Origin: Candidatus Saccharimonadales bacterium
GTDB taxonomy: Bacteria; Patescibacteriota; Saccharimonadia; Saccharimonadales; Saccharimonadaceae
Direction of reading: 5' to 3'
Assembly: GCA_039928925.1 (NCBI GenBank)
Contig: JBDSSF010000001.1
Coordinates: forward strand, 124,001 to 188,000
DNA: 64,000 nt
In this document: positions 4,186 through 58,103 of the stretch, piece by piece
Layout: each line of letters opens with the position of its first letter
Position numbering within the stretch: the first letter of the stretch is position 1
Notes under the pieces: generated by a model
Seen by the model: only the letters and a program-made list of their open reading frames with translations
The model's database searches: none
Told to the model about the DNA's origin: nothing
Position numbers and translations under genes: made by a program

Positions 4186-5064
4186 GTGTATAAAGCAATT
4201 GCAGCCAACAAACGAAACACGGTCTTCATTATGGCCGTGTTTGTTGGTATCATCGGCGCTATTGGCTGGGCACTGAGTTATTACTATGGAAACAGATCAA
4301 TCACGTACATTGTTATCGGTATTGCGATGCTCTATGCACTCATTCAGTACTATGCTGCTGGCTCACTTGCTATCGCAATGTCTGGCGCGAGAGAAATTGA
4401 AAAGAAAGATAATCCAAGACTGTATCGTATAGTTGAAAATATTGCTATTACTGTCGGGCTTCCAACACCAAAAGTATATATTATCGATGACCAAGCGCCC
4501 AATGCTTTTGCGACTGGTCGCGATCCAAAGCATGCAATTGTCGCTGCCACAACTGGTCTTCTTGAAATTATGGACGATAGGGAGCTAGAAGGTGTCATCG
4601 CTCACGAGATGGGGCATGTTCAAAATTATGATATTCGTGTGAGTATGATAGCTTTTGGACTGGTCAGTGCTATCGGTATTTTGTCTGATATCGCAATGCG
4701 GATGTTCTTCTTTGGTAATAACAACAACCGCGAAAATTCAAACCCGATTATTCTTGTCGTTGGAATTGTGATTGCAATTCTCGCGCCAATTATTGCGGCC
4801 ATGGTGCAGCTAGCAATTAGTAGGCAGCGTGAGTACCTTGCAGATAGTACTGGCGCAATGACAACAAGGTATCCTGAGGGACTTGCAAGTGCGCTTGAGA
4901 AACTAGAAACCTATGGCCGACCAATGAAACGTCAAAACTCCGCGAGTGCTCATTTGTATTTTAGTAATCCTCTCAAGCCAGGCTTTTTAAGCGGTCTTTT
5001 TAGTACTCATCCACCACTTGCAGATCGAGTTGCACGACTCCGTGCAAACGAAAATAAGTTCTAA
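4186..5064 (+). CDS. htpX: HtpX-like membrane zinc metalloprotease
   Basis: 292-residue M48-family protease that degrades damaged membrane proteins. Two N-terminal membrane helices (about 15-35 and 38-60), then the zinc motif HEMGH near residue 141, two further hydrophobic helices (about 155-175 and 190-215) and the downstream glutamate region SRQREYLAD that supplies the third zinc ligand. The C-terminal STHPPLADRVARL block is typical. The start is a GTG at 4186 after TTAGGAATTC. It is second in the lemA-htpX unit and its end lies close to the next gene. Confidence 0.92.
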   Translation: MYKAIAANKRNTVFIMAVFVGIIGAIGWALSYYYGNRSITYIVIGIAMLYALIQYYAAGSLAIAMSGAREIEKKDNPRLYRIVENIAITVGLPTPKVYIIDDQAPNAFATGRDPKHAIVAATTGLLEIMDDRELEGVIAHEMGHVQNYDIRVSMIAFGLVSAIGILSDIAMRMFFFGNNNNRENSNPIILVVGIVIAILAPIIAAMVQLAISRQREYLADSTGAMTTRYPEGLASALEKLETYGRPMKRQNSASAHLYFSNPLKPGFLSGLFSTHPPLADRVARLRANENKF

Positions 5065-5080
5065 GAAAGCGAATGCTGCT

Positions 5081-56292: not shown

Positions 56293-57363
56293 ATGGATCA
56301 ATCGCTTTCAACATTTGGCTGGAATGAGTATTTTACAGACGAATGGGAGAAGCTTGCAGTGAAGGATGCTGTACCAGCACGCGTGATTGCGGATTTTGGT
56401 ACGTCTTTAAAGCTAGCGACGCCAACGATTATAACTGCAGAACTATCTGGTAGGATGGCTCACTATTCAAACCGAGAGCACGTTCCAAAGGTTGGGGACT
56501 GGGTAGCCGTAACTATTGCAGACAGCGGGCACGCTGTTATTATTGATGTCGTTCCCAGACACAGTGAAATTGCTCGTAAAATAGCTGGTAACCAAACAGT
56601 GAAACAGGTTATTGCAGCAAATATTGACATCGCATTTGTCCTCATTTCTATGAATGGTGACTTTAGTGTCGAGCGTCTTAAACGGTTCTTATATCAATTG
56701 TCGATTAATAATATTCAACCAATCATTGTTCTCACGAAAGCAGATAAAACAAATGATAGCGCTGCATACATATCACAGTTAAAAACTTTTGAGCTTCCAA
56801 TTATTACAAGTAGTAGTCTCACTGGAGAAGGTATGAAAGAAATACGTGGCTATATTACACCTGCTAAAACGGCAATTCTCCTCGGATCATCTGGTGTTGG
56901 TAAATCAACACTTACAAATAATCTGCTCGGGCGTGACGCTCAACAAACTCAGGAGGTACGAAGCTCAGACTCAACGGGAAAGCACACGACTATTCACCGT
57001 GAAATATTTATATTACCAAATGGTGGGCTTTTGATCGATACTCCTGGTATTCGGGAACTACAGCTATGGGGAACCGAAGAAGACTTGGACGAAAACTTTG
57101 ACGATGTTGCGAGTCTTATCTCTGAATGTCTATATACAACTTGTCAGCATGGGAGTGAAAAAGGATGCGCGGTTCAGGCGGCAATACATGATGGCGAGCT
57201 GACTAGCGCCCATTTTGCAAGCTACAATAAAATGAAACGTGAGCTTGCTACACTGAAGACAAAGAGCAATGAACGTTCGAAATGGCTTAACAAAAAATCT
57301 AAAAAGAAAGTTGAACGCCAAGTGCGCGATCTCATCAATGATGAGAAACAAGACATTAATTAA
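56293..57363 (+). CDS. rsgA: Ribosome small-subunit-dependent GTPase RsgA
   Basis: 356 residues: an OB-fold N-terminus, then the circularly permuted GTPase with G4 VLTKADK, G1 GSSGVGKST and G3 DTPGIREL in the typical swapped order, and a C-terminal zinc region with SECLYTTCQHGSEKGCAV. RsgA matures 30S subunits. It begins one base after the ligase gene with AGGAGCT as ribosome-binding site. The tail is very basic (KKSKKKVERQ). Confidence 0.95.
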   Translation: MDQSLSTFGWNEYFTDEWEKLAVKDAVPARVIADFGTSLKLATPTIITAELSGRMAHYSNREHVPKVGDWVAVTIADSGHAVIIDVVPRHSEIARKIAGNQTVKQVIAANIDIAFVLISMNGDFSVERLKRFLYQLSINNIQPIIVLTKADKTNDSAAYISQLKTFELPIITSSSLTGEGMKEIRGYITPAKTAILLGSSGVGKSTLTNNLLGRDAQQTQEVRSSDSTGKHTTIHREIFILPNGGLLIDTPGIRELQLWGTEEDLDENFDDVASLISECLYTTCQHGSEKGCAVQAAIHDGELTSAHFASYNKMKRELATLKTKSNERSKWLNKKSKKKVERQVRDLINDEKQDIN

Positions 57364-57457
57364 ATAAAAAAAGACACGAATCTACAACTAGTTTCGGAGG
57401 TTAAACCCTACTAACGTGGTATGATGGAGACAAGTATTAAAGATTGGATTATATAAT

Positions 57458-57538
57458 ATGGCTAAACACAAGAATTGGCACGGCGCATCTCGTAAGCGTA
57501 TTTTGAAGAAAAAACTCAAAGCACAGCAAAACAAATAG
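57458..57538 (+). CDS. 26-residue basic peptide
   Basis: MAKHKNWHGASRKRILKKKL then KAQQNK: half of it Lys/Arg with a helical RILKKKLKAQQ part. It has no Shine-Dalgarno sequence, but a TATGAT box lies 33 bases upstream and a terminator follows. Its length and charge resemble tiny ribosome-linked proteins such as bTHX, without clear sequence identity. It follows rsgA, another ribosome factor. I cannot prove that it is translated. Confidence 0.5.
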   Translation: MAKHKNWHGASRKRILKKKLKAQQNK

Positions 57539-57555
57539 TCCAAGTGGACATGCTA

Positions 57556-57595
57556 AAAAATAAATAAAGTCACGGTAGTGGCTTTATTTATTTTT
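57556..57595. terminator. Bidirectional terminator
   Basis: AAATAAATAAAGTCAC / GTGGCTTTATTTATTT stem with a GGTA loop. It overlaps the last codons of the convergent VOC gene. Confidence 0.8.
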
Positions 57596-57977
57596 CTTGA
57601 AGAAGTGAAAGTATATTACCTGAAGGGTCTTTGAACCATGCAATATCAGGCCCTTGGTTAACGCTGAGGCCTCGGAGTACACCCTTATCATCCTGAGCGG
57701 AGGGCATGTTATCATAGCGTTCAAATTTGATGCCACGTGATACAAGATCATCAACAGCTTCGTCTATATTGCTAACGACTAAATTGAGTATCGTAAAAGT
57801 TGCTGGTTGATGATCATATTTTTCATAAAGGAATAACCGACCACCACCTGGAAGTAAAATATGTAAGCCCATCTCTTCATTTTCAAGTTTGAGTCCTAGA
57901 GTACCCACATAAAATTCTTTTGCTTTGATGCTATCTGTCACTGAAATTCCGCTAAAGGATGTAATTGCTTTAACCAT
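57588..57977 (-). CDS. VOC (glyoxalase-like) family protein
   Basis: 129 residues: AITSFSGISVTDSIKAKEFYV, LGLKLENEEMGLHILLPGGGRL, and the C-terminal NQGPDIAWFKDPSGNILSLL. This is a two-domain VOC fold that could be a lyase or dioxygenase; substrate unknown. The start at 57977 follows AAGAAGGAG. It is the second VOC protein in the window (with 30627) and not a close copy. Confidence 0.9.
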   Translation of the reverse strand: MVKAITSFSGISVTDSIKAKEFYVGTLGLKLENEEMGLHILLPGGGRLFLYEKYDHQPATFTILNLVVSNIDEAVDDLVSRGIKFERYDNMPSAQDDKGVLRGLSVNQGPDIAWFKDPSGNILSLLQEK

Positions 57978-58044
57978 AGTACTCCTTCTTGTGTTGTCCT
58001 TACTATTATACGCTCTTAAAAAAGTGCTATGTTGATATATGAAA

Positions 58045-58103
58045 AGCTCCACGTCATCGACGCGTAGCCTTTCATGGTGGCTTTTCGCGGATAGCGTGGA
58101 GTT
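58045..58103 (-). terminator. Nested terminator of cassette 6
   Basis: Outer stem CTCCACG/CGTGGAG with an internal loop and inner stem CGCG...CGCG; a TTTTC run on the minus strand. Confidence 0.7.

Follow-up and report, generated by a model that had tools for sequence, protein, structure and literature searches.

Between a gene for a ribosome-maturation GTPase and a metabolic gene of a Candidatus Saccharimonadales bacterium stands a very short frame for a highly basic peptide, which raises the question of whether this frame is a gene and, if so, what its product does. We examined it within the window, that is, the whole stretch of 64,000 nucleotides that was analysed. The initial annotation had described a basic frame of 26 residues lying next to rsgA and equipped with a promoter and a terminator. 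An ATG frame of 26 codons was located exactly at 57458–57538 on the plus strand, with the RsgA_GTPase domain encoded upstream and a glyoxalase-like frame downstream, confirming this placement. The features of the locus were as follows.

56293–57363, plus strand: rsgA (RsgA_GTPase, PF03193, E 1.7e-49)
57417–57425, plus strand: extended -10 element TGGTATGAT, ending 32 nt before the start codon
57442–57448, plus strand: conserved leader GATTGGA, of which ATTGGA recurs before the ATG in the family
57458–57538, plus strand: 26-codon gene for MAKHKNWHGASRKRILKKKLKAQQNK, with homologues in the order, pN/pS of 0.23 and invariant K3, H8, A10, K13, R14 and K17
57556–57595, no strand assigned: perfect 18-bp hairpin with loop GGTA and a U-rich 3' arm on both strands, found by folding
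Stop at 57588, minus strand: convergent glyoxalase-like frame (PF00903, E 9.1e-6)

The peptide contains 10 Lys and Arg among its 26 residues (38%, so that the half previously given was too high), plus two His, and Asp and Glu are absent. Its Lys/Arg share was unique among the 289 ATG frames of 20–40 residues in the 64-kb window, and direct reading of the peptide revealed no hydrophobic or signal-like stretch. On the opposite strand, a TTG frame of 51 codons (57388–57543, minus strand) runs across the gene, and an antisense cluster of 10 loci was seen in the comparison of 49 family loci; this cluster is most simply a by-product of conserved sense codons.

Conservation of the frame in relatives had been set beforehand as the test of whether it is more than a chance frame, and it was found. 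A search with the single sequence matched 13 of the 61 nearest genomes at E ≤ 1; a second match in G020, inside a 666-codon frame, was due to chance. A 12-sequence profile matched 58 of 246 genomes drawn from the order at E ≤ 1; 35 of these, at E < 1e-3, were accepted, of which 29 belong to the window's family and six to four other families. A profile built from 37 sequences detected the gene in 63 of 249 family genomes (completeness at least 90%) at E ≤ 0.01, in 22 of 42 genera; 62 of these matches were clear and that in G638 was weak and partial (E 0.004).

Codon usage among the homologues was then compared. The 42 loci read gave 40 distinct peptides. Over codons 2–21 of 40 sequences (without L048, and without L027, whose peptide is that of L025), pN was 0.197 and pS was 0.864, giving the pN/pS of 0.23. 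All 780 pairs had pN below pS, and differences numbered 8993 at the third codon position versus 4059 and 3130 at the other two. Because it is conserved in relatives with constraint at the codon level, 57458–57538 is, as judged from the aligned sequences, a real, conserved, protein-coding gene beyond chance. The 289 ATG frames of similar size in the window show how readily such a frame could arise by chance or stand open in a non-coding RNA, but the uniform excess of pS over pN, the third-position excess and the lack of any Rfam match in 56800–58100, on which an RNA gene was rejected, argue against both. We consider this explanation hardly credible, and the chance frame that the initial annotation had allowed for is excluded.

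As for the residues under constraint, the six listed above are invariant in all 37 sequences of alignment A2 (from which L048, the 41-residue L031 and L032 were left out); four of them are Lys or Arg, and N6 is frequent. L032, outside the alignment, retains all six, and in L048, whose gene is cut by a contig end, Lys replaces Arg at position 14. Two main subtypes were distinguished, ...HGASRKRLLKKK and ...HGADIKRARKKK. For a homologue of 30 residues (the window protein has 26), AlphaFold2 predicted one helix covering residues 2–29, with a mean pLDDT of 85.7 and a pTM of 0.41. The charge, the absent acidic residues and the predicted helix would equally fit a nucleoid or general polyanion-binding peptide, which would compact DNA or coat mRNA with no fixed rRNA site. 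However, invariant H8 and A10, together with the frequent N6, suggest a shaped binding site and not charge alone, and we regard such a general binder as unlikely, if well worth keeping in view.

The distribution of the gene was patchy, the profile leaving it undetected in 186 of the 249 family genomes (note that absence here and below means undetected by the profile). The class draw gave matches in 53 of 294 genomes including G638, 52 of them family members and the remaining one from another part of the order. In the phylum draw, 19 of 379 genomes matched at E ≤ 0.05; 11 of these were in the family, and the eight matches outside the order were partial (E 0.012–0.05) and were not accepted. Conservation across all Patescibacteria, among which a search for a copy had been suggested, was not borne out: neither the class draw of 294 nor the phylum draw of 379, whose share outside the order is unstated, gave an acceptable match beyond the order. 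A scan of the contigs of named genomes confirmed at least seven loci, from at least 588 stretches, six of them titled Saccharibacteria and one (L058) Patescibacteria group bacterium. The L058 copy (5001–5072) follows the family up to residue 16 and then diverges (MAKHKNWHGASRKRLLTLGVYFV); either the gene has decayed or the assembly is at fault.

Copy number was usually one, and G126 has two. On the best 16S tree, presence and absence amount to seven changes; three are forced by well-supported branches alone. The seven changes indicate that the gene was gained or lost repeatedly and, together with its patchy detection, that it looks dispensable. A probe with a flanking gene for a syntenic empty site in G634 found no match there. 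Phages and plasmids gave no match to the peptide family, and of 232 stretches of viral contigs that fit its pattern none was confirmed; a phage or plasmid origin was thus rejected.

We next considered how the gene may be expressed. The promoter and the terminator attributed to the frame were both recovered, as the extended -10 element and the 18-bp hairpin. In 24 of 42 family loci, TGNTANNNT ends 28–38 nt upstream of the ATG. In three more (L021, L033 and L041), the -10 lies just 6 nt upstream of the ATG, versus a leader of about 25 nt in others, and these three may be leaderless. Shortly upstream of the extended -10, at 57399–57408, a TTAACC-type motif was noticed by eye, as it was at equivalent places in the promoters of L002, L003, L010 and L038; it is possibly a regulator site, and apparently stands too near the -10 for a normal -35 box.

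The GGA of the leader GATTGGA is perhaps a weak Shine-Dalgarno, or ribosome-binding, site. ATTGGA was present within the last 20 nt upstream of the ATG in 14 of 42 family loci and in none of 55 window frames of at least 130 codons, whose starts were taken as the first ATG. GATTGGA-N8-11-ATG was not enriched in the genome (eight matches versus five for the reversed pattern, the other seven matches preceding frames of 2–89 codons), nor was ATTGGA-N7-11-ATG in the window (5 versus 3.85 expected), and GATTGGA as a general translation signal was therefore rejected. With regard to the idea that the leader mimics rRNA, GATTGGA was found in 13 of 30 16S and one of 19 23S stretches, and CGATTGGA in none of the same 30 and 19.

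The 3' arm of the hairpin is U-rich (TTTATTTATTTTT), and folding energies were -20.9 kcal/mol for 57539–57610 and -19.3 kcal/mol for 57555–57605. The hairpin is probably an intrinsic terminator and may also serve the convergent glyoxalase-like frame, the last codons of which it overlaps. A consensus promoter and terminator scanner reported neither the extended -10 nor the hairpin at this locus, presumably because a -35 box is absent and the U-run lies inside the stem.

The neighbourhood of the gene was compared over 49 family loci, with flanks mostly of 1.5 kb and at least one place counted twice (L041 being L060). In this comparison, rsgA was a neighbour in two loci, in different arrangements: in the window it lies upstream in the same direction, and in L003 downstream in convergent orientation. 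A functional link to rsgA, to which the position of the frame had pointed, was rejected on this count. No gene was a general neighbour across the 49 loci, the neighbours were not ribosomal genes, and the majority of copies look like single-gene units. By eye, a frame in the same direction is close to the copies in L016 and L029, and a Clp-type ATPase, named by eye from its sequence, lies upstream in L010, L036 and L038. A convergent tRNA-Arg(TCT) was found just downstream in L035, L036, L038 and L062 (4 of 44 loci scanned), and may mark the ancestral site.

These surroundings bear on two further explanations. Many bacterial proteins of about 26 residues act as small regulators of an enzyme or of RNA polymerase, and a regulator that binds one such partner and is unrelated to RNA would suit both the size of the peptide and the seeming dispensability of its gene. 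However, no general genetic partner appeared within the flanks compared and the composition of the peptide is unusual for such a role, which makes this explanation quite doubtful. Saccharibacteria live on other bacteria, and the product could instead be a cationic helical peptide acting extracellularly on competitors or the bacterial host. Passages of PMC10085706 describe growth inhibition of some bacteria by bS22 and bL37 in free form, but the lack of a general neighbour, hence of a recurring export or immunity gene, and the few hydrophobic residues and absent secretion signal noted on direct reading leave the extracellular peptide improbable.

Turning to known families, the description of the protein as unrecorded proved correct for Pfam and NCBIfam, in which none of 37 members matched any family at E ≤ 1. 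PHROGs gave stray matches in one or two of the 37 members only (best E 0.029). The 41-residue member (L012/L031) matched LepA_C at E 0.033, YtfJ at 0.064 and TIGR04438 at 1.1; these relations were rejected, as the matches lie below the family cut-offs and touch no other member. In the PDB, no chain matched the family at E ≤ 10, in a search where control queries of 25–27 residues recovered bTHX and eL41.

Several very small ribosomal proteins nevertheless resemble the peptide in kind. In the passages available of PMC10618245 and PMC10085706, the bS22/AURKAIP1-COX24 group (PF08213), eL41 and mS38 are, like the peptide as predicted, tiny and very basic helices, and the bS22 group is often unannotated as ribosomal and occurs only in some lineages; positive residues make up 55–65% of bS22 and eL41, versus 38% Lys/Arg in the peptide. 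bTHX is similar in being basic and of about 26 residues (23–27 in PDB chains). The bL37 of Actinobacteria is a small accessory ribosomal protein of restricted range (PMC10085706, in part); the family had no PDB match to it in the search controlled with bTHX and eL41. Identity with bTHX was rejected, since TIGR04560 matched none of 37 members at E ≤ 1 and the PDB gave no match though the control query recovers THX. Identity with bS22, a protein of the 16S pocket formed by h27, h44 and h45, was rejected likewise (PF08213, none of 37 at E ≤ 1; no PDB match), as was identity with eL41 by sequence, whose control query was recovered without any match to the family.

In 24 relatives (12 with the gene and 12 without), neither the bTHX nor the COX24/bS22 model gave a match over its cut-off, the weak sub-threshold matches elsewhere numbering four and two, respectively; the bTHX and bS22 sites of these relatives are thus without a recognisable occupant. 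Note that each model was over its cut-off in just one of 14 control genomes. The N-terminus of bL35 (MPKxKTHKGTAKR) is superficially like the family by eye, with M-x-K-x-K-x-x-x-G and then KR. A fragment or paralogue of bL35 was rejected, since hhalign gave a probability of 0.6% over nine columns that lie elsewhere in bL35; a normal bL35 is separately present in 23 of the 24 relatives and missing in the draft G003.

A peptide that sits on rRNA might leave a difference at its site in genomes without the gene, and rRNAs were compared on this premise. Among 52 genomes entered, 34 had a 16S match, and the comparison used the 30 whose locus was extracted, 17 carrying the gene and 13 lacking it; the window's own genome, which had no 16S match, is absent from the 16S and 23S comparisons. 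In 16S (29 rows, G128 left out), the best difference was 0.52 against a shuffle mean of 0.50, and 43 of 100 shuffles were as high. In 23S (19 rows, 12 with the gene and 7 without), which was compared without L139 and L160–L163 (5 of 24 rows) and without L159 and L164–L168, the best difference was 0.69 versus a shuffle mean of 0.71. The power of these comparisons is small, with four independent pairs on well-supported branches. In 16S, six genomes, all without the gene, carry a compensatory change within one hairpin (columns 325, 326 and 336); a single branch of the best tree (support 43/89) sets these six apart, so that the change counts as one event at most, and it may be a clade mark. As regards the rRNA rows themselves, L109 (the 16S of G128) stands far from the others on the tree and may be the end of a contaminant contig in the G128 assembly. 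For L139, L158, L165 and L166, the length of the 23S match varies from about 2.9 to 3.7 kb, and two full-length 23S matches of unequal scores occur in each of G164 and G155; insertions or foreign contigs would account for these matches.

Taken together, the reading that we favour, at a probability of roughly 0.5, is a lineage-restricted, dispensable RNA-binding protein with its own promoter, the likeliest form of which is an rRNA-bound accessory ribosomal protein. The gene would yield a helix of mostly 24–30 residues, rich in Lys, Arg and His and mostly free of acidic residues, which would bind structured RNA, with rRNA as the likeliest target. The helix would sit in an rRNA pocket and neutralise phosphates there, with K3, H8, A10, K13, R14 and K17 as its contact face, and its role would resemble that of bTHX, bS22, bL37 or eL41 as accessory ribosomal proteins of restricted lineages. 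A basic helix with fixed non-charged residues, usually encoded in one copy under its own promoter, fits the proteins of rRNA pockets, and the gene is small, basic, conserved and coding, as is expected of a lineage-specific accessory ribosomal protein. In passages of PMC10618245 and PMC10085706, bS22, bL37 and eL41 are of this rRNA-pocket kind, and in Borrelia bS22 and bL38, ribosomal proteins unannotated as such, were revealed by cryo-EM density; in that Borrelia work, mass spectrometry failed to detect one ribosomal protein, namely bS22. Against the accessory ribosomal protein stand the lack of sequence similarity to solved ribosomal proteins, the non-ribosomal neighbours, the null result of the rRNA comparison, the patchy distribution, a composition that peptides binding DNA or another polyanion could equally have, and a Lys/Arg share lower than in bS22 and eL41. 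The earlier suggestion of a small ribosomal or RNA-binding protein thus holds as to kind, that of a conserved small basic protein without an entry in the libraries searched; binding to RNA and to the ribosome is inferred. More specifically, an unrecorded ribosomal protein peculiar to Saccharimonadales, lying as a single helix in an rRNA pocket, accessory, kept and repeatedly lost, is a tentative proposal that we hold at somewhat short of even confidence.

Among the matches listed in the open-access literature (ribosome structures, small proteins and proteomics of Saccharibacteria, CPR and Patescibacteria; stretches of the peptide; novel small ribosomal proteins), we recognised no paper on this peptide family; subscription papers and preprints were outside this scope. 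On the evidence of sequence, the locus encodes a 26-residue basic protein that is unlisted in the family libraries searched and conserved in many Saccharibacteria; it most likely binds RNA and is possibly a small accessory part of the ribosome. Patescibacteria are described, in the abstract of PMC12641178, as possessing ribosomes of reduced size and roughly half of the ribosome biogenesis factors usually present. If ribosomal, the protein would be a lineage-specific addition within a phylum described with a smaller ribosome, and a candidate at hand for any density left unassigned when Saccharibacteria ribosomes are mapped. If not ribosomal, it would still represent a family of uncharacterised micro-proteins from bacteria whose genomes are very small.
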